Made by a program: the position numbers and the translations under genes. DNA of 43,158 nucleotides, taken from an uncultured Verrucomicrobiota bacterium. GTDB taxonomy: Bacteria; Verrucomicrobiota; Verrucomicrobiia; Limisphaerales; UBA9464. The stretch lies in contig CAIXUG010000044.1 in the NCBI GenBank assembly GCA_903922605.1, positions 1 to 43,158 of the forward strand. Direction: 5' to 3'. Below, piece after piece: positions 10,062-34,823 of this stretch. Below the pieces are notes generated by a model. It had not been told where the DNA came from. It saw only the letters and a program-made list of their open reading frames with translations, and made no database searches. Each line of letters starts with the position of its first letter. Position 1 is the stretch's first letter.

Positions 10062-11864
10062 TCAGGCACCGCCGAGCAGCTCCTGGAGTTTGCCGAGATC
10101 GTGACGGGTGGTGAACGACAGGAAGGTCTCGCCGGGCTGCCGGTGCTGAAGGTAGCCCTTGAGGATCTTCTCCATCATGGGCTTCAGCTCCGCGACGCTC
10201 ACACCGGTGAAGAGCTGCCGGCCCACGGCCTGTTTGCCGCCGAAGCCACCGCCGACAAAGATGTGGTAACCCTCCACTGACTCGCCGCCGACCTTCACCT
10301 TCGCGCCGAGCAGGCCGAGGTCACCCATGTAGTGCTGGGCGCAGGAATTGGGGCAGCCGGTGATATGGACATTGATCGGCTGGTCGAGCGTCACGCGCGA
10401 ATCCAGCCACTTCATCAGGTCGAGCGCGTGGCCCTTGGTGTCCGCGCCGGCGAACTTGCAGTAGGAATTGCCGGTGCAGGCGATGAACCCGCTCTTGAGA
10501 TTCGACTGCCGCGCCTCGAAGCCGAGCTTCAGCAGCGCCTTCCTCGCCGTCTCGACGAAGGCATCGCGGACGTTCGGGAGGACGAAGTTCTGCCAGACCG
10601 TCAGGCGGATTTCGCCGCTGCCGTAGAGGTCGGCAATCTCAGCAAGCCGCCGCAGTTGCTTCGCAGTGAGCTGGCCCACCGGAACTGTCACGCCGATCCA
10701 ATTCAGCCCCGCCTGCTTCTGCGGATAAATCCCCACGTGCGGGTGCGGATGCAGATCCGGAACTTTGAGCTTTGAGCTTTGAGCTTCGTCCACCGCTTCC
10801 ACCGGAATACGAAGCAACTGGTAGCCCAGCAGCTTCTCCGTCTCTACGAGGTATTGTTCCAACGTCCAAGTCTCGAGGAGATGCTTGAGCCGCGCCTTCT
10901 TGCGGTCGCCGCGGTTGCCGTTGGCGATGTAAACCCGGAGCAGCGCCGCCGTGACTTTGAGCACCTCATCCGGCTTTACGAGCACACCGAGGTCGCGGGC
11001 GAAAGCCTTGTGGCCGGTCGCACCGCCGAGCGCGACGCGGAAGTAAACGCCCTCGGCAATCTGGTCGGTGATGAGCCGGTGGCTGGCGGACCCTTCCGCC
11101 TTCGCGACCACCTTCACCGCCTTGAAGCCGATGTCATTGGTGTCCTCGACCGTCGGGATCTTGCCGCCGCCGTGGAAGGCGATGTTGAACTTGCGCGGCA
11201 GGTCGTAGAACTCGCGGTGGTTCAGGATGAGCTGCCCGAGCGCGTGCGTGAGGGGCAGCGTGTCGATGAGTTCGTCGGGGTCCACGCCGGCCGTCGGATC
11301 ACACGTGAGGTTGCGGATGTTGTCCGCACCCGTGCCGCGCGTGTGCAGGCCGATGGACTGGATGCGGCGCACGAACTCGACGGTGTCCTTCGGCAGGATG
11401 AGCCGCATCTGCAGGTTCGACCGCGTCGTGATCTGCACGTAGCCGCTCGTGAGCTGGTCGGCGATGTTCGCCAGCTCGCGGAGCTGGAAGCTGTGGAGCT
11501 GGCCGCCGGGAATCCGCAGGCGCCCCATGTAGGCCTCCTTGTTGGGTGAGAGGTAGAACAAGCCCTGCCACTTGAAGCGGAAGGTGTTCTCCGTGTCCGG
11601 TGCCTGGTTCGCCGCCGCGTGCTGGAGCAGCAACGGGTAGGCATCCAGCGGATGCAGCTCGTGCTTGATGCGCTCCTCGGGAATGAGGTCGTCCAGGTTC
11701 GGATTGGCCGGTCCCGTCGGCGCGGCGGCGGGGTTCGGCAGGACGTCGCCGAAGGAAAGGCCGCGGTTATGCAGGCCGGCGAACAGGCCTTCGAGATAGG
11801 CGGTCTGTTCGCCGGAGAGTTTCTGGCCGGCGACTTCGGAAAAGGGGATTTTGGGCGTGCTCAT
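10062..11864 (-). CDS. nirA: Siroheme/[4Fe-4S] assimilatory nitrite reductase (NirA type)
   Basis: A 600-residue member of the nitrite/sulfite reductase family; its place between a flavoprotein and nasA marks it as the nitrite reductase (six-electron reduction of nitrite to ammonium). Siroheme/[4Fe-4S] ligands are C463, C469, C504 and C508 in CTGNSYC...TGCPNSC. Two duplicated ferredoxin-like halves are visible (FYLSPNKEAYMGRLRIPGG and HVGIYPQKQAGLNWIGVTVP). Residues 359-368 in the linker between the halves are encoded by a heptamer repeat. The N-terminal helix SGEQTAYLEGLFAG resembles that of the neighbouring flavoprotein. The start is the ATG at 11864, two bases after the upstream stop; the longer open frame is antisense noise. 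The expected physiological donor is the CysJ-like protein. Confidence 0.9.
   Translation of the reverse strand: MSTPKIPFSEVAGQKLSGEQTAYLEGLFAGLHNRGLSFGDVLPNPAAAPTGPANPNLDDLIPEERIKHELHPLDAYPLLLQHAAANQAPDTENTFRFKWQGLFYLSPNKEAYMGRLRIPGGQLHSFQLRELANIADQLTSGYVQITTRSNLQMRLILPKDTVEFVRRIQSIGLHTRGTGADNIRNLTCDPTAGVDPDELIDTLPLTHALGQLILNHREFYDLPRKFNIAFHGGGKIPTVEDTNDIGFKAVKVVAKAEGSASHRLITDQIAEGVYFRVALGGATGHKAFARDLGVLVKPDEVLKVTAALLRVYIANGNRGDRKKARLKHLLETWTLEQYLVETEKLLGYQLLRIPVEAVDEAQSSKLKVPDLHPHPHVGIYPQKQAGLNWIGVTVPVGQLTAKQLRRLAEIADLYGSGEIRLTVWQNFVLPNVRDAFVETARKALLKLGFEARQSNLKSGFIACTGNSYCKFAGADTKGHALDLMKWLDSRVTLDQPINVHITGCPNSCAQHYMGDLGLLGAKVKVGGESVEGYHIFVGGGFGGKQAVGRQLFTGVSVAELKPMMEKILKGYLQHRQPGETFLSFTTRHDLGKLQELLGGA
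10761..10788 (+). repeat. Intragenic heptamer array in nirA (AGCTTTG x4)
   Basis: Four consecutive heptamers: AACTTTG, AGCTTTG, AGCTTTG, AGCTTCG. On the coding (minus) strand they specify the QSSKLKV stretch. The same unit (AAAGCTC in another phase) forms the intergenic arrays at 28998-29099. The array falls in the linker joining the two halves of the nitrite reductase and keeps the frame. Confidence 0.8.
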
Positions 11865-11866
11865 AC

Positions 11867-13705
11867 TCAGTAAACATCGCGCTGGTAGCGCTTCGCCGTC
11901 TTTAGTGCGGCGACGTATTCGGTGGCCTGCTCTTTCGTGCGTCCGCCGGCGGTCTCGATGACCGTGTGGAGGGCGGCGTCCACATCCTTGGCCATGCGCT
12001 TGGCATCGCCGCAGACGTACACGTGCGCACCGGCCTCGAGCCAGGACCACAGCTCGGCGGCCTGTTCGAGCATCCGGGTCTGCACATAGATCTTCTCGGC
12101 CTGGTCACGGCTGAAGGCAAGGTCGAGGCGGGTGAGGGAACCGTCCTTCAACCACGCGGTCAGCTCCTCCTCGTAGAGGAAATCATTCGCGCGTTGCTGG
12201 TCGCCGAAGAAGAGCCAGTTCTGCCCGCTCGCGGCGGTGGCCCGGCGCTCCTCAAGGAACGCACGGAACGGCGCGATGCCGGTGCCCGGCCCGATCATGA
12301 TGACGGGCTTGGTCAGCTCGTTCGGGAGCCGGAAACCATGCGAGACCTGCACGAACACGGGCACGGCGGTCTCGCCAAGCGCGACACGATCCGCGAGCCA
12401 GCAGGAACAGACGCCTTTCTTGCCCCGGCCGTGGGCATCGTAGCGCACGGCGGCCACGGTGAGATGAACCTCGCCCGGATGCGCCTTGGGCGAGGACGAG
12501 ATCGAGTAGAGCCGCGGCTGGAGCTTGCGCAGATGCGTGACGAACTCGGCGGGGGTGAACTTCGCGCCCGGACAGGCCTTGAGGACGTCAACGACATCAC
12601 GGCCGAAGATCCAGCGGTCGAGGTCAGCCTTTCGTGCCGGGTCCAGCAGCGCCAGGAGCTCGGCATTGCCGGCGCGAGTCGCGGCGTCCTTCACCAGCGC
12701 GGGCGCAGGTGCGGTGATGATATAGGTCCGCAGCAGTGCCTGATGAAGCGTGCTGTCCTTGCCGTGGGCATCTTTGACCGGCTCCTCGCCCTGGGCACCG
12801 AGCGCCGCGAGCAGCTCCTCGACCAGCGTGGGACAGTTCGTCGGCACTACGCCGAGTGCATCCCCGGCCTCGTAACTGAGGCTGGAGCCCTCCAAGACGA
12901 TCTCGAAGTGCCGGGTGTCCTTCTGCGAGCCGGCGGTGTTCAGCCGGCGGTTTGTTTTCAGCCGGGCCGGGAAGGGGTTTTGACGGGAGTAAGCAGTAAT
13001 CAGTGGGTCAGTAATCAGTAAGCCAGTAGTCAGTGAAGCAGTGTTCAGTAAATCAGTAGGATTCCCGACCGCCGCCGACTGATCACTGATTACTGTCTCA
13101 CTGATTACTCCCTCACCCGCCGCCAATGCGGGCCACAACGCTTCAGTCCAAGCCCGGGCGGCCACCTCGTAATCTACATCACACTCGCCCCGGGGGACGA
13201 GGCGCTTCGCACCGAGCTTCTCGAGGCGTTCGTCGAACTTTTTCGAGGCGCCGCAAAACTCGGCGTAGTTCTTGTCGCCCAGGCCGAGCACGGCGAACGC
13301 GAGGTTCTCCAGCCGGGGAGCCGTCTCGGCACTGAGCTGCGCCCAGAAGTTCACCGCGTTGTCCGGCGGATCGCCGTCGCCCCAGGTGCTGGTGATGACC
13401 ACGCAGCGCGATTCCTTCGCGAGATCGGCCGGGGCGATGGCGTTTAGTTCGCGGATGGCCGGCGCAAAACCGCGCTTCTCGGCCTCCTTGGCGAACTTCT
13501 TCGCCAGGCTCTGCGCGCTGCCCGTCTGCGAGCCGAAGGCGACGAGCAAGGGGGTCGCGGATTTCGCCGGCGGGTTCGCGCCCGTGCCCGGCGCGCCATG
13601 GCGGTCGTAGAAGACGCCGGCAAAGAAGCCGTTCAGCCAGGCCTGTTGTTCCGGGCTGAACGGCGCGTTGTCGGGCAGTGTGGGAATGATGATCGGTTCT
13701 GGCAT
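11867..13705 (-). CDS. CysJ-like NADPH flavoprotein reductase (donor to NirA)
   Basis: A 612-residue diflavin reductase of the sulfite reductase alpha-subunit type. An N-terminal FMN/flavodoxin domain (about 50-190) has FGSQTGSAQSLA, STWGDGDPPDNA and LGLGDKNY. The FAD domain carries RLYSISSSP, and the NADP domain carries IGPGTGIAPFRAFLEER, LFFGDQQRANDF and the family-typical end RYQRDVY. It would pass electrons NADPH-FAD-FMN to NirA, whose start codon is 2 bp downstream. Residues ~198-238, between the flavodoxin and FAD domains, are encoded by a 7/8-mer repeat pair and look inserted. An extra N-terminal segment PFSPEQQAWLNGFFAG matches the start of NirA. The name cysJ would suggest sulfite reduction, but the neighbours argue for nitrite. 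Confidence 0.87.
   Translation of the reverse strand: MPEPIIIPTLPDNAPFSPEQQAWLNGFFAGVFYDRHGAPGTGANPPAKSATPLLVAFGSQTGSAQSLAKKFAKEAEKRGFAPAIRELNAIAPADLAKESRCVVITSTWGDGDPPDNAVNFWAQLSAETAPRLENLAFAVLGLGDKNYAEFCGASKKFDERLEKLGAKRLVPRGECDVDYEVAARAWTEALWPALAAGEGVISETVISDQSAAVGNPTDLLNTASLTTGLLITDPLITAYSRQNPFPARLKTNRRLNTAGSQKDTRHFEIVLEGSSLSYEAGDALGVVPTNCPTLVEELLAALGAQGEEPVKDAHGKDSTLHQALLRTYIITAPAPALVKDAATRAGNAELLALLDPARKADLDRWIFGRDVVDVLKACPGAKFTPAEFVTHLRKLQPRLYSISSSPKAHPGEVHLTVAAVRYDAHGRGKKGVCSCWLADRVALGETAVPVFVQVSHGFRLPNELTKPVIMIGPGTGIAPFRAFLEERRATAASGQNWLFFGDQQRANDFLYEEELTAWLKDGSLTRLDLAFSRDQAEKIYVQTRMLEQAAELWSWLEAGAHVYVCGDAKRMAKDVDAALHTVIETAGGRTKEQATEYVAALKTAKRYQRDVY
12994..13114. repeat. Intragenic inverted pair of 7/8-mer arrays in the cysJ-like gene
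   Basis: The left array (12994-13060) has nine units, each beginning CAGT and alternating strictly 7 and 8 bp (CAGTAAT, CAGTGGGT, CAGTAAT, CAGTAAGC and so on). The right array (13078-13114) runs the other way: ACTGATC, ACTGATT, ACTGTCTC, ACTGATT, ACTCCCTC. The two can pair across a 17 bp loop. The segment is translated in frame as the linker between the FMN and FAD domains. Confidence 0.85.
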
Positions 13706-16173: not shown

Positions 16174-17094
16174 TCAGGGTTCGACCTCGACCTTCACGGT
16201 TTTCACCTCGGACGGACGGCGCGCGCGGCCGCCACGCCCGAAGAGCGGCGGGCGCCTGTGCGTGATGTCCTCGGGTTCGACATCAGGCAGCACGAGGTTG
16301 AGGGTGAGCGAGGTCCGGTTGCGGTCGCGGGCCTTGAGCAGGTAGTCAATGACCTCGTTGCGGATCTGCTTGAAGTCGTAGTTCTCGTTCACGGCCCGGC
16401 GGTCACGCGGGTGCGGGAGCAGCACGGGGATGCTGGGACCGAGTGTGGCCCTGGGGCCGGCGGTGAGCGGGATCACACGGTCGGCGAGCAGGATGGCCTC
16501 GTCGGGATCATTGGTGATGAGCACCACGGTCTGCTTCTCCTGGTGCCGGATGCGCGAAATCTCATCCTGCAACGTGGCCCGGGTGAGCGCATCCAGAGCG
16601 CCGAGCGGCTCGTCGAGCAGCAGGACCTTGGGCTGCATCGCCATCGTGCGCGCGACGCTCACGCGCTGCCGCATGCCGCCGGAGAGCTCGCTCGGGCGCT
16701 TCTCGCGGGCGGGCGTGAGGTTCACCATCGCGATGAACTTCTCCGTGTGCGCCTGGCGCTGCTCCGGTGTCCATTGCGGGAACACCTGGTCCACGGCGAG
16801 GGCGACATTCTCATAGACGGTCAGCCACGGCAGCAGGCTGTAATTCTGGAACACCAGCCCACGGTCGGGGCCCGGACCATCCATTTCGCGGCCCTCGAGC
16901 CGAACGGTGCCGGTATCGGGCCGGATCAGGCCGGCGAGGAGCGACATCAGCGTCGTCTTGCCCGCGCCGGAATAGCCGACGATGGCGACGAACTCACCCT
17001 GCTCGATCTCCAGGTCGATGTCCGCCAGCACCTCGGTCCGGGCCGAGCGCGGACCGTAGCCTTTCGAGACGCCACGTAATTGAAGGAAGGACAT
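16174..17094 (-). CDS. nrtC: Nitrate ABC transporter ATP-binding protein (NrtC-like, short form)
   Basis: A 306-residue ABC ATPase: Walker [10 protein letters not shown], signature [16 protein letters not shown], Walker [14 protein letters not shown], switch region [11 protein letters not shown] (Asn replaces the usual His of the H-loop in TNDPDEA). Cyanobacterial NrtC carries a large NrtA-like C-terminal sensor domain; here only about 50 extra residues follow the ATPase core, ending in a basic/acidic tail. I chose the ATG at 17094 ([14 protein letters not shown]); the longer open frame would read through the heptamer array upstream (giving KFVNRKSKIVLP) and is not credible. It lies 22 bp before nrtD and 107 bp after nrtB, with a repeat hairpin filling the latter gap. 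Confidence 0.83.
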
Positions 17095-17100
17095 GGGAAG

Positions 17101-17192
17101 TACGATTTTCGATTTACGATTTACGAATTTCACGGCTGTTCGCGACGCCCCCTGCAATACCCGGTCGTAAATCGTAAATCATAAATCGTAAA
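17101..17192. repeat. Inverted pair of heptamer arrays between nrtB and nrtC
   Basis: The left array (17101-17128) is TACGATT, TTCGATT, TACGATT, TACGAAT. The right array (17165-17192) is TCGTAAA, TCGTAAA, TCATAAA, TCGTAAA. They are in opposite orientation, four units each, with a 36 bp loop. The left array ends 6 bp before the nrtC start codon, where a ribosome-binding site would be, and the whole gap between nrtB and nrtC consists of this element. Confidence 0.85.
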
Positions 17193-17201
17193 TGAAAGTG
17201 A

Positions 17202-28911: not shown

Positions 28912-28923
28912 GACGGCGACGAG

Positions 28924-28972
28924 GAGTGACGAGTGGGGAGTGACGAGTGGGGAGTGACGGGTGACGAGTTGG
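28924..28972 (+). repeat. Heptamer array upstream of the nucleosidase (GAGTGAC/GAGTGGG)
   Basis: Seven contiguous heptamers: GAGTGAC, GAGTGGG, GAGTGAC, GAGTGGG, GAGTGAC, GGGTGAC, GAGTTGG. The array starts 12 bp upstream of the nucleosidase start codon. The core AGTGACGAGTG is shared with the intragenic array in ileS (32190-32224). Confidence 0.85.
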
Positions 28973-28997
28973 AAGAAGAAGAGGCGCAGCCCGTGAG

Positions 28998-29099
28998 AAA
29001 GCTCCAAAGGCAAAGCTCAAAGCTCAAAAGCAGAGCCGTGCTCCCAAGTCCAAGGCCACTACGGCGCACCCGCTTTGAGCTTTGAATTTTGAACTTTGA
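28998..29099. repeat. Inverted pair of heptamer arrays (AAAGCTC unit)
   Basis: The left array (28998-29031) includes AAAGCTC, CAAAGG, CAAAGCT, CAAAGCT, CAAAAGC. The right array (29072-29099) is GCTTTGA, GCTTTGA, ATTTTGA, ACTTTGA. They are inverted with a loop of about 40 bp. The right array ends 11 bp from the stop codon of the purine permease gene. The unit matches the one inside nirA. Confidence 0.85.
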
Positions 29100-29110
29100 A
29101 TTTCCTTCCC

Positions 29111-31002: not shown

Positions 31003-33921
31003 TTATGCGCTGGCCGAAGTGACCGCCTCGACGCAGCGGCCGCAGATGGTCGGGTGCGCGGCGTTCTGGCCGATGTCGGTTTCCCAGTGCCAGCAACGCT
31101 CGCATTTCACGCGGCCTAGCTCGCTGGCCGGTTGGACAACGACGCTATTATTGGTGCTTTCCAGACTTACAATCTCCACCTTCGACACGTTGAGAATTTC
31201 TCGGAACAGTTCGAGCCACTCTGGCTCGTATGGCGTGCTCCGAGTTGAAGATGACTCCGGATCAGGAAGGATGACAGTGCGCATCGGATACTTCACAAGC
31301 GCGTCTAGCGATTTCCCGATGCGCTTGTGTTGACGAGCCTCTTCGAGAAGCGGAAACGCCCGTTCACGGTCCCTAAACAATCCCGCCACATAATCAGTCA
31401 TGCCTTCATGTTCCAACGGCTCCCAGATGGACAGATGCACTGACTTGGCCAGGGCACTCGGGATGAACCCCCATGCTTCCTCCGTGGTGAACACCAGGAT
31501 TGGCGCGAGCATTTGGCAAAGACGCGTGACCATGCAGTGCAACGCCGTCTGTGTGCTACGGCGGCGTGGTGAATTCACTGCATCGGTGTAGAGGCGGTCC
31601 TTAACCACGTCGTGGTAAGTGGCGCTGAGCTGCACGGCAATGAACTGCGAGAGCTTCTGATAGACGACGTGGAATTCGTAATCTCTGTATGCCGAATCAA
31701 CTTCCTCTTCCAACATTGCGAACGCATCAAGAATCCAGCGGTCCAGGTCATTCATTTCCTCTCGACGGTTGGTTCCATGAGGGCCTGCAAACAGGAAGTT
31801 ATGCTTCTCGTCATTGGGATCAAAGTCGTAGAGGTTGCTGAGCTGGTAGCGCAGCGTGTTGCGGATGAGCCGGTAGGTCTCGCCGACCTTCTTCAGGCGC
31901 TCCTCGCTCACGACGATGTCGCTGCGGTAATCCTGCGAGGCGACCCACAGGCGCAGCACGTCGGCGCCGTAGTCCTTGATATAGCGGTCGGCGGTCTGCG
32001 GCTTCTGGTAGCCGCCGGCACCCTGCTTGGACTTGGAGATCTTCTCGCGGTCCTCATCCACCATGAAGCCGTGCGTGAGGACGGTCTTGAATGGCGGCGC
32101 GCCATTGCCCGCGAGGGAAAGGAGCAGCGATGACTGGAACCAGCCGCGATGCTGGTCGGAGCCCTCGAGGTACACGTCGGCCTGCCAATCGAGTGTCGAA
32201 TTACGAGTTTCAAGTGACGAGTGTTGGAGCTCCGGCCGCCGCATGAGCACGGCGCGGCTGGAGCTACCGGAATCGATCCAGACATCGAGGGTGTCGGTGC
32301 CTTTGCGGGCGGCTTCGGTACCGGTCCAATCGGCCGGCCGGCACTGGGGCCAGAGTTCGGCGACAGGCGTGGCGAACCACACGTTGCTGCCGTGCTCCTC
32401 GATGAGCGCGGCGGCGTTGCGAACAATGGCGGCGTTGAGGATCGGCTCGCCGGTGGCGTCGTAAAAGGCCGGGATCGGCACGCCCCACGAACGCTGGCGC
32501 GAGATGCACCAGTCGGGGCGGGTCTTCACGGCGCCTTCGATGCGGTTCTGGCCCCAGTCGGGGACCCATTTCACCGAGGTGATGGCGGCCAGCGCCGATT
32601 GGCGGAAACTGGTGCCGGCCACATCATGGTCGATGCGGATGAACCACTGGTCCACCGCGCGGAAGATGATCGGCGTCTTCGAGCGCCAGCAGTGCGGGTA
32701 GCTGTGGTGGTAATCCTCGCGGTGCGCGAGCGCCTGCTTCTCGACGAGCAGGGCGAGTACGGCGTCGTTGGCTTCGGAGCGGTTATTCTTCTCCAGCGTG
32801 GACTTGCCGACGAGCGATTCGGGCAACTGCTGCTCGCGGGGCAGGTCGTTCGTGGGCGCGAGACGGCCTTCGTCATCGACCGGACAGTAGATGGGCAGGC
32901 CGACCTTGAGGCCGAGCTGATAGTCATCCGCGCCGTGACCGGGCGCGATGTGCACGAAGCCGGTGCCGGTGTCGCTCGTGACGAACTCCGCCGGGTACAG
33001 CTTGCCGGTGCGGGCGCAGAAGGGATGCTCGTACTCGATCGTCGCCAGTTCGTCGGCGTGGAGCGTACGGACGATCTGGTAGCTGCCCCAGTTGAGCTTC
33101 TCGGAGACGGTGGACAGCAGCGAATTTGCGACGATGTAGGAACCGCCCTCGGCCATCACCAGCGAGTAGTGATAGCCGGGGTTGAAGGCGACCGCGAGGT
33201 TCGCGGGGAGCGTCCACGGCGTGGTCGTCCAAATGAGCACGTAGGTGTTCGGCTCGCCTTTCAGGCGGAATTTTACGTACACGCTCTGGCTGACGTGGTC
33301 GGCGTATTCGACCTCGGCCTCGGCCAGGGCGGTCTTGAAGGGGATGCTCCAGTACACGGGCTTCTTGCCGCGATAGACGAAGCCCTTCTCGACGATGTCC
33401 GCGAACATGCGCAGCTCGTCGGCCTCGTACTGGCGGTCGAGGGTGAGGTACGGGTTTTCCCAATCGCCGAAGATGCCGAGGCGCTTGAACTGGCCGCGCT
33501 GCAGGTCGATATACTTGCGCGCGTAAGTGTCACAGGCTGTGCGGATGGTCGCGGCATCGGCGTCGGTCTTGCCGGCTGCGCGGAATTCCTGCGCGACCTT
33601 CGATTCGATGGGCAAACCATGGCAATCCCAGCCCGGCACGTAGGGCGCATCCTTCCCGCGCAGGGTCTGGTATTTGACGACGATGTCCTTGAGCGTCTTG
33701 TTGAGCGCGGTGCCGACATGGACGTCGCCATTCGCGAAGGGCGGCCCATCATGCAGGACGAACTTCGGCTGCCCCGCGCGGGCGGCGCGAATCTGCGCGT
33801 AAATGCCGTCGGCCTCCCATTGCGCCAGGCGTTGGGGTTCGCGCTGCACCAGGTTCGCCTGCATGGGGAACTCGGTGCGGGGCAGGTTCAGCGTGTTCTT
33901 GTAATCGGGCTTCTCGCTCAT
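31003..33921 (-). CDS. ileS: Isoleucyl-tRNA synthetase
   Basis: A 972-residue class I synthetase that charges tRNA-Ile. Motifs are the HIGH-type signature HVGT at 68-71 (PPFANGDVHVGTALNKTLKD), KISKS at 627-631, the YLEGSDQHRGWF block, and a C-terminal zinc finger (KCERCWHWE...PTICGRC), as in the bacterial mupirocin-sensitive type. The start is the ATG at 33921 (MSEKPDYKNTLNLP). Residues ~566-578 (LQHSSLETRNSTLD) are encoded by five heptamer repeats and interrupt the normally short link between RPEL and ADVYLEGSDQHRGW; the Escherichia coli enzyme has about eleven fewer residues here. The frame stays intact, so the enzyme should work. Repeats flank the gene on both sides. Confidence 0.96.
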   Translation of the reverse strand: MSEKPDYKNTLNLPRTEFPMQANLVQREPQRLAQWEADGIYAQIRAARAGQPKFVLHDGPPFANGDVHVGTALNKTLKDIVVKYQTLRGKDAPYVPGWDCHGLPIESKVAQEFRAAGKTDADAATIRTACDTYARKYIDLQRGQFKRLGIFGDWENPYLTLDRQYEADELRMFADIVEKGFVYRGKKPVYWSIPFKTALAEAEVEYADHVSQSVYVKFRLKGEPNTYVLIWTTTPWTLPANLAVAFNPGYHYSLVMAEGGSYIVANSLLSTVSEKLNWGSYQIVRTLHADELATIEYEHPFCARTGKLYPAEFVTSDTGTGFVHIAPGHGADDYQLGLKVGLPIYCPVDDEGRLAPTNDLPREQQLPESLVGKSTLEKNNRSEANDAVLALLVEKQALAHREDYHHSYPHCWRSKTPIIFRAVDQWFIRIDHDVAGTSFRQSALAAITSVKWVPDWGQNRIEGAVKTRPDWCISRQRSWGVPIPAFYDATGEPILNAAIVRNAAALIEEHGSNVWFATPVAELWPQCRPADWTGTEAARKGTDTLDVWIDSGSSSRAVLMRRPELQHSSLETRNSTLDWQADVYLEGSDQHRGWFQSSLLLSLAGNGAPPFKTVLTHGFMVDEDREKISKSKQGAGGYQKPQTADRYIKDYGADVLRLWVASQDYRSDIVVSEERLKKVGETYRLIRNTLRYQLSNLYDFDPNDEKHNFLFAGPHGTNRREEMNDLDRWILDAFAMLEEEVDSAYRDYEFHVVYQKLSQFIAVQLSATYHDVVKDRLYTDAVNSPRRRSTQTALHCMVTRLCQMLAPILVFTTEEAWGFIPSALAKSVHLSIWEPLEHEGMTDYVAGLFRDRERAFPLLEEARQHKRIGKSLDALVKYPMRTVILPDPESSSTRSTPYEPEWLELFREILNVSKVEIVSLESTNNSVVVQPASELGRVKCERCWHWETDIGQNAAHPTICGRCVEAVTSASA
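32190..32224 (+). repeat. Intragenic heptamer array in ileS (CGAGTGT x5)
   Basis: Five heptamers in perfect phase: CGAGTGT, CGAATTA, CGAGTTT, CAAGTGA, CGAGTGT. They are translated in frame in a loop just before the conserved YLEGSDQHRGW segment. The core AGTGACGAGTG also occurs in the intergenic array at 28924-28972. Confidence 0.85.
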
Positions 33922-33968
33922 CTCGGACCTTTCAGGGAGCGCGGAAGCTAGCGGGCGGGGAAACCATG

Positions 33969-34154
33969 GGCAACGGCGAACGACGAACAGCGAACAGCGC
34001 GGCTTGGGGAATGCGCTTACAGCCAGATCGCAGAAGCCTGCCGAAGCCAAGGCGCGTAGAGCTGAACAACAAAGGAACGAAGAAACGAAGATACAGCGAG
34101 ATGTGGACAGCCGGACGGCGGCCTCCTACCCGCACCTCGCTGTTCGCTGTTCGC
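33969..34154. repeat. Inverted heptamer arrays upstream of ileS (GCGAACA unit)
   Basis: The left array (33969-33996) is GGCAACG, GCGAACG, ACGAACA, GCGAACA. The right array (34134-34154) is ACCTCGC, TGTTCGC, TGTTCGC. The two are inverted around a loop of about 137 bp that holds a further degenerate stretch (GAACGAAGAAACGAAG). The right array ends 3 bp before the stop codon of the upstream membrane protein gene. Together they fill most of the 236 bp gap. Confidence 0.75.
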
Positions 34155-34157
34155 AGT

Positions 34158-34823
34158 TTATTGGCGGAAGACGCTGGTCATGATGACTTCCTTGGTTTTC
34201 CAGAGCAGGGTCATGGTGAGCGCGACGGGCGGCAGCGAGAGCACGACGACCAGCCAGATCTTCGCCAGCTCAAGCGTGTTGAGGAACCACGCCAGCCCGG
34301 CGGGCAGATGCTCCTGGCGCAGGAGCAGGAGGTAGGCGGCTGCGAGGATCGTCTGCGTGAGGAGCAGGGTGCGGTTGAGATGGGCGAAGAAGCGGGTTTC
34401 CGTGCGCAGGGTCTCATCGGGCAGCATGGCGGCAAGACGCACCAGCACGTGGTTTAGCGCGAGCAGGAAAGCCATGCCGGCAAACAGGAGCACGACCATG
34501 CTCTGGGTGTAGAACGGCTGGTCGGGCTGCCGGCTCCACCACACCGTGAAGGGCGCGAGTGCGAGCAGCAGCAGCGCCAGCAGCCGGGCCCGCTCCACGG
34601 CGGCGACCCAGATCCGCTCCTGCGGCTGGAAGCTGCCGAACTGGTGCAGGCCATAGACCACGAGCAGGCTCGCCCCGACGACCGGCGGGAAGCCGAAGCC
34701 GCGCAGGCTGTCCTCCAGCGCCGATTTCGCGTCGAGCAGCAGCACGAGCGGCAGGCCCCAGAACAGCGCCGAAAGCCCGCGTACCACGCGGGCCAGCGAA
34801 GGGATGACCTCGGGCTTTGCCAT
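34158..34823 (-). CDS. Hypothetical polytopic membrane protein
   Basis: A 221-residue protein with about five hydrophobic segments: LSALFWGLPLVLLLD (17-31), VVGASLLVVYGLH (48-60), LLALLLLALAPFTVWW (80-95), SMVVLLFAGMAFLLALNHVL (108-127), TILAAAYLLLL and LVVVLSLPPVALTMTLL at the C-terminus. It has a soluble loop with SFQPQERIW. No family recognised. It lies between speA and ileS on the same strand, separated from each by a repeat-filled gap. Confidence 0.6.
   Translation of the reverse strand: MAKPEVIPSLARVVRGLSALFWGLPLVLLLDAKSALEDSLRGFGFPPVVGASLLVVYGLHQFGSFQPQERIWVAAVERARLLALLLLALAPFTVWWSRQPDQPFYTQSMVVLLFAGMAFLLALNHVLVRLAAMLPDETLRTETRFFAHLNRTLLLTQTILAAAYLLLLRQEHLPAGLAWFLNTLELAKIWLVVVLSLPPVALTMTLLWKTKEVIMTSVFRQ

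Follow-up and report, generated by a model that had tools for sequence, protein, structure and literature searches.

The gene for isoleucyl-tRNA synthetase (ileS, protein IleS) in a 43,158-nucleotide stretch of DNA from an uncultured Verrucomicrobiota bacterium (GenBank assembly GCA_903922605.1, contig CAIXUG010000044.1, positions 1 to 43,158; hereafter the window) carries an array of five seven-base units that is read in frame as part of the protein. The array occupies a loop, site B, that holds heptamer arrays and palindromic inserts, mostly dimers of GTAG-type repetitive extragenic palindromes (REPs), across many lineages of relatives, and the content of this loop differs between close relatives. 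The reading that we favor, with a probability of roughly 0.7, is that intergenic repeats, dispersed in the genome, have colonized a tolerant loop and that recombination over short tracts has reshuffled it, the reading frame and the essentiality of the gene acting as the filter. It seems that junk-like DNA has been made into protein repeatedly at one spot. In-frame insertion of REPs and of Rickettsia palindromic elements (RPEs) is known; what is new is the variant seen here, in which heptamer arrays locked in phase recur at a single site in an essential enzyme. The features of ileS used below are the following (coordinates of the window):

31003..33921, minus strand: ileS, isoleucyl-tRNA synthetase; the open reading frame (ORF) is open back to 34050, and the ATG at 33921 is the likeliest start

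32189..32223, minus strand: array of five heptamers, one base ahead of a Trp codon; 32190-32224 scores equally

32188..32226, minus strand: codons of the site B loop, QHSSLETRNSTLD, with PEL on one side and WQADVYLEG on the other

32608..32625, minus strand: codons of the site A loop, DVAGTS, flanked by FIRIDH and FRQ; the window copy is without a repeat

In the coding sense, the units read CACTCGT, CACTTGA, AACTCGT, AATTCGA, and CACTCGA, followed by a T and then by the TGG codon for Trp. The period-7 score has its maximum of 29 consensus matches out of 35 at starts 32189 and 32190 alike, and the array encodes the loop QHSSLETRNSTLD between RPEL and WQADVYLEGSDQHRGW. Not one of 2,000 shuffles of the codon order of ileS reached 29, and the second-best place in the gene scores 24. 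Because Tandem Repeats Finder omits the array from its output at a minimum score of 30, the array is weak when taken alone, and it is the relatives that supply conviction. The array is a real feature, and the claim of the earlier note that heptamers lie in frame within an essential gene was confirmed. The same note held the flanks and the catalytic domain to be intact, which agrees with the alignments and with the score of IleS against TIGR00392 (840.1 bits; curated cut-off 621.4), which places it within the family. Judged from its sequence, the enzyme looks intact despite the array. The genome from which the window comes (G000; 5.3 Mb in 90 contigs) contains one strong IleS match, the 3 others being at E 1e-24 or worse. 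An AlphaFold model of IleS (mean predicted local distance difference test score, pLDDT, 80.7) has its best fold matches in the solved IleRS structures 8c9f, 8c9e, and 1qu2, and shows the site B loop as a coil preceding strand 583-586, with a helix on one side and the strand before the GSDQHRGW motif on the other. Disorder of the loop was not indicated by this model (pLDDT block means over the loop of 76 and 69). An excess of about 11 residues had been proposed for the loop. This figure is close to the 12 gapped columns seen against Priestia IleRS but not to the net gain of about 3 within the genus, where the loop has 13 residues in the window and 10 in 6 of 7 relatives (L004, L006, L013, L021, L030, and L031). 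The array therefore substitutes for a loop and is not a mere addition. In the seventh same-genus relative, from the sister genome G004 (L022), the loop has 39 residues.

We then turn to the relatives. From 110 IleS loci (30 plus 80), the second piece of a split gene (L028) and 10 duplicates were dropped, leaving 99 distinct sequences, 7 of which encode an IleS of less than 850 residues. The 80 are the best 80 of 582 confirmed loci, so the 99 sample relatives close to the window and are not a census. The closest named records among these best 80 of 582 are Verrucomicrobiota, many of them titled Verrucomicrobiales, Pedosphaera, or subdivision 3. Loci such as L057, L058, L060, L108, and L130 bear the titles Akkermansia, Methylacidimicrobium, or Proteobacteria and encode an IleS of this Verrucomicrobiota group; these titles are probably wrong. 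Classified by eye, site B contains heptamer arrays of ten types in 14 genes, palindromic inserts in 8, and other sequence in 77. A scan by rule recovered 13 of the 14 arrays (L124 fell under the threshold) and 7 of the 8 palindromes; 4 further matches to the palindrome rule, all at the same conserved coding position, were set aside as spurious. At a period-7 threshold of 28 or more of 35, the scan of the 99 genes found arrays in these two loops only, 13 at site B and 1 at site A. Periods 8 to 11 gave no arrays in these genes, and periods 5 and 6 gave 4 and 11, all of them elsewhere. Inserts are in frame in the genes read. The loop is hypervariable, ranging from 5 to 39 residues: 12 or 13 in 13 of the 14 heptamer carriers and 21 in the other, 23 to 39 in the palindromic class, and 5 to 19 in the remaining 77. 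Neither its length nor its sequence is thus fixed across the family, a constancy that the earlier note had named as the finding that would speak against an insertion. The same note described the entry of the array into the enzyme; this entry is not unique, as 14 of the 99 genes carry heptamers and 8 carry palindromic inserts. We rejected a lone insertion on the ground that relatives carry inserts at the same loop, and this recurrence makes the feature more interesting than first stated.

Tested for GTAG-REP arms, with a rule that tolerates near variants of GTAG, 7 of the 8 site B palindromes have inverted arms with 16 to 18 of 20 bases matching (L099 failed), and the 5' arm begins exactly with GTAG in 5 of these 7. 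GTAG-like REP dimers were also found by rule at site A in 5 of the 99 genes (L017, L029, L070, L090, and L094). The elements at the 2 sites of L094 are near-identical, and the site A insert of L070 consists of a heptamer array between GTAG-like REP arms.

The content of site B changes over short distances. The window and G004 align in synteny over about 35 kb; most of the larger blocks are 87 to 94% identical in DNA, and one block right beside the array is 80% identical. At 32196-32219 this alignment is interrupted, G004 having a 98-bp REP dimer there. Likewise, L074 and L076 are 92% identical in DNA and have different REP dimers at the same place. Between L070 and L130 (the latter a partial gene), DNA identity is 93.1%, yet 20 differences lie across the 19 codons that flank the loop, compared with a mean of 2.5 elsewhere, and no other window of these genes is as divergent. 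This local divergence suggests the replacement of a short tract. We also mapped the classes on a tree of the 99 sequences (both loops removed, LG+G4, quick search, Shimodaira-Hasegawa-like approximate likelihood ratio test support only). At least 11 of the 13 changes that the heptamer label requires are forced by starred branches, and shuffled labels, which need 13.3, are equally scattered. Because the tree is that of the ileS gene itself, the label changes include losses and exchange. In the spacers that were compared by eye between the two sister genomes (the window and L033/L034), sequence diverges far more than in the genes, and the heptamer arrays differ.

Repeats of the same kind are dispersed through the genome. 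In 350 kb of G000 (the window plus 17 stretches), we counted 26 period-7 arrays scoring at least 28/35, compared with a total of 8 over 15 first-order shuffles, and 18 scoring at least 29/35, compared with a total of 3. Outside the called ORFs lie 16 of the 26, though 82% of the bases are coding; the ORF caller was simple and crude, and arrays scored as coding may sit in over-extended 5' ends. These are dispersed heptanucleotide repeats of the STRR/LSSR-like kind, STRR repeats being the heptanucleotide repeats of cyanobacteria, and the ileS array resembles them. Among 14 pairs of neighboring arrays less than 400 bases apart, in a sample that also includes 3 stretches of G004, the inverted match was the better one in 11, the direct match in 2, and 1 was a tie. 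Because such inverted pairs surround a short spacer, long hairpins are possible. Arrays of this class in the window include:

17090..17200: inverted heptamer array pair (GATTTAC... / GTAAATC...) at a gene boundary, of the same repeat class

28918..28975: array of GACGAGT/GGGGAGT heptamers, ACTCGTC/ACTCCCC as the reverse complement, which resembles the one in ileS

33965..34164: two heptamer arrays in inverted orientation, located upstream of ileS

Further inverted intergenic pairs were seen at 28997-29108 of the window and in L037 (8244-8342), L041 (10955-11198), and L048 (1149-1280).

We next compared the unit sequences in ileS with those elsewhere in the genomes. Arrays of ACTCGTN, which as a type come closest to that of ileS, gave 16 overlapping matches in G000 (none of them inside the window), 11 in G004, and none in the other 27 of 29 genomes. 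The search for the heptamer vocabulary covered 8 of the 14 carriers (all except L003, L070, L078, L081, L090, and L124), with 14 hand-picked genomes in the later searches; matches were assigned to ileS by position alone for L080, L082, and 2 of the 4 in the genome of L072. In 6 of the 8 carrier genomes (G000, G019, G025, G029, G030, and G031), the heptamer type of ileS is present outside this gene. CACTCCG occurs elsewhere in the genome in 4 of 4 carriers of that type and in 5 of 39 other genomes, and AATTCAA in G019 plus 2 of 28 others. The GTAG palindrome pattern was detected in 5 of 29 genomes (G000, G004, G019, G022, and G025), 3 of which (G004, G022, and G025) bear such palindromic inserts in ileS. 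Backwards controls in the AATTCAA and GTAG palindrome searches gave no match. In addition, heptamer arrays flank 8 of the 22 insert-bearing loci and 5 of the 77 others (Fisher p = 0.001, with kinship ignored).

Altogether, these results are consistent with the array having been copied, or derived by remodelling, from the genome's dispersed seven-base repeats and sitting in a loop that would tolerate foreign peptide. REP transposition may bring repeats in, as may templated or slippage events that draw on dispersed arrays; homologous recombination of short tracts, across flanks that are conserved, would then spread and replace the resulting alleles. Because ileS is essential, survivors would be limited to events that keep the frame and are free of stops. 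A period of 7 suits this filter: since 7 and 3 share no factor, an array of sufficient length yields the same periodic peptide in every frame, and a stop-free heptamer is therefore safe in any of them. Since the frame is kept only by steps of 3 units, the number of units would stay steady. By itself, the encoded loop peptide is probably functionless. If correct, colonization offers a natural and often-repeated record of noncoding repeats turning into protein at one position of an essential enzyme, in which tempo, frame filter, and spread are measurable.

Several observations weigh against colonization from dispersed repeats. The first is phase: 9 of the 10 heptamer types share register and phase before the Trp, with the TC of the unit at the same place, and the five units, the last often degenerate, extend to one base before the Trp codon (the L070 array stops 3 bases further away). 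Independent insertion in random phase is therefore very unlikely (about 1 in a million, assuming 7 equal phases), and phase shared by differently sequenced arrays of other lineages is not what the entry envisaged in the earlier note, a simple single insertion, predicts. Common descent with concerted rewriting, seeding at a conserved codon, peptide selection, or a phase-directed mechanism could explain it. Seeding by slippage from the upstream Glu-Leu codons was rejected, since by eye the spacing to the first unit varies (36- versus 39-base loops) and that to the Trp is constant. The second is inheritance: on the tree, the palindromes cluster (5 label changes, compared with a shuffled mean of 7.8), and some of them are therefore inherited. 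Third, among 18 hand-picked pairs examined for local divergence, the excess is clear in only 1 (L070-L130) and weaker in L084-L106, where 2% of windows are equally divergent; in the remaining pairs, at least 6% of windows are as divergent as the loop flanks. Fourth, the vocabulary match has gaps. In the carriers L080 and L082 (genomes G032 and G033), the AAATCGG and CAAAACTC patterns were found only at the expected ileS position, and AAATCGG is present in 8 of 13 other genomes and hence gives no support. Backwards controls matched 3 of 29 genomes for ACTCGTN (G003, G018, and G025), 1 of 29 (G028) and 4 of 14 in the chosen set for CACTCCG, and 2 of 14 each in the AAATCGG and CAAAACTC searches. 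Fifth, Y1_Tnp is present in 28 of 29 genomes with counts that do not track the 5 palindrome genomes, and the presence of a REP-associated tyrosine transposase (RAYT) was rejected on this ground as the determinant of REP inserts. Finally, the loop may have a functional role.

The strongest alternative, which we regard as a real possibility but would not bet on, is that a single ancestral five-heptamer cassette was inherited and exchanged horizontally, its units being rewritten in concert by conversion from genomic arrays and its scatter on the tree reflecting loss and exchange. It shares the source of the repeats with colonization and differs in the number of entries. The common phase and near-equal length in 9 of the 10 heptamer types speak for it, and so do the local replacement in L070-L130 and the sister genes L081 and L124 with near-identical arrays. 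The residue flanking the loop also fits: Trp in all 22 insert carriers and Phe in none of them, compared with Phe in 20 and His in 1 of the 77 others. However, the units would have to shift together between relatives of about 87% DNA identity (CACTCCG in L072, AAATCGG in L080), and repeat-less loops of similar length show by eye no trace of heptamers.

More doubtful is the proposal that heptamer arrays are a mobile class of repeats. A mechanism that reads the unit would insert a five-unit cassette at specific targets, or rewrite it there, in fixed phase, and the ileS loop would be favored as a target both by this cassette and by REP dimers. The inverted intergenic pairs and the site A array of L070 within REP arms would then be steps of one process. 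Seven-base arrays are usually ascribed to slippage, and here they vary between relatives at a fixed site and phase, so that their origin and movement can be tested by comparing strains. We consider it improbable that the peptide itself is selected, with the loop favoring a periodic xSxLxxx and arrays retained or adjusted to serve in structure or regulation. One heptapeptide frame does recur in several lineages (HSALRTP, HSSLETR, NSKFKIQ, and KSEIGNR), but 77 of the 99 relatives lack a recognized repeat in loops of 5 to 19 residues, and the palindromic inserts at the same place encode quite different peptides. Low complexity of the loop by chance, or misassembly of a metagenome-assembled genome, can hardly be credited: Tandem Repeats Finder does not list the array, and nearly all 80 named relatives are metagenome-assembled by title, but the codon shuffles and the concentration of rule-found arrays at one loop contradict this reading.

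REPs and RPEs within genes are established (PMC3733652, PMC10969869). The ileS inserts resemble RPEs in being in-frame repeats in genes of functional proteins (PMC10969869, PMC3733652), but the window repeat is a direct heptamer array without a palindrome and, though it works like an RPE, is not one; in addition, inserts here occupy the same loop of a single essential gene in many genera. The palindromes resemble GTAG-tagged REP elements, 7 of the 8 at site B having inverted arm ends of GTAG or a near variant. In the study of GTAG repeats (PMC3733652), Opitutus terrae, a verrucomicrobium, is described as the richest in intragenic copies, and REPs are reported in tRNA synthetases of other bacteria. 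Different REPs at roughly one site are described there for recB of two Xanthomonas species, and otherwise the sites differ. The words "ileS" and "heptamer" are absent from its main text. Among the matches listed, titles and abstract starts in the open-licence literature gave no sign that ileS in this group contains REPs or heptamer arrays, which is no proof of absence.

Heptanucleotide arrays of TAACTGA are described from Beggiatoaceae, Cyanobacteria, and some Bacteroidetes in a report (PMC4679880) according to which seven-base units are the most abundant among repeats of 5 to 11 bases in most genomes, polymerase slippage is a proposed origin, and repeats in coding regions are likelier to have units in multiples of three. 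Unlike those arrays, the ones described here are of many heptamer types per genome, often in inverted pairs, and are read in frame within an essential enzyme, where both their site and their phase recur. A survey of prokaryotic satellites likewise places heptamer- and hexamer-derived families among the most abundant short bacterial satellites and assumes a local origin; it terms dispersal of noncoding satellites rare, and its main text does not mention Verrucomicrobiota (PMC6749651). Borg elements also have fast-evolving tandem repeats that are read as protein and give new disordered regions, but they are archaeal and extrachromosomal (PMC9879509).

Period-7 arrays were also seen within other ORFs. 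A TTTGAGC array lies at 10757-10795 of the window within a nitrite/sulfite reductase-like ORF (10062-12050, minus strand), and its counterpart in the sister genome is 12 bases shorter and by eye less repetitive. ORFs with AMP-binding, UvrD helicase, and Hsp70 domains contain such arrays in L041 (14833-14871), L047 (9554-9603), and L051 (1749-1795), respectively.
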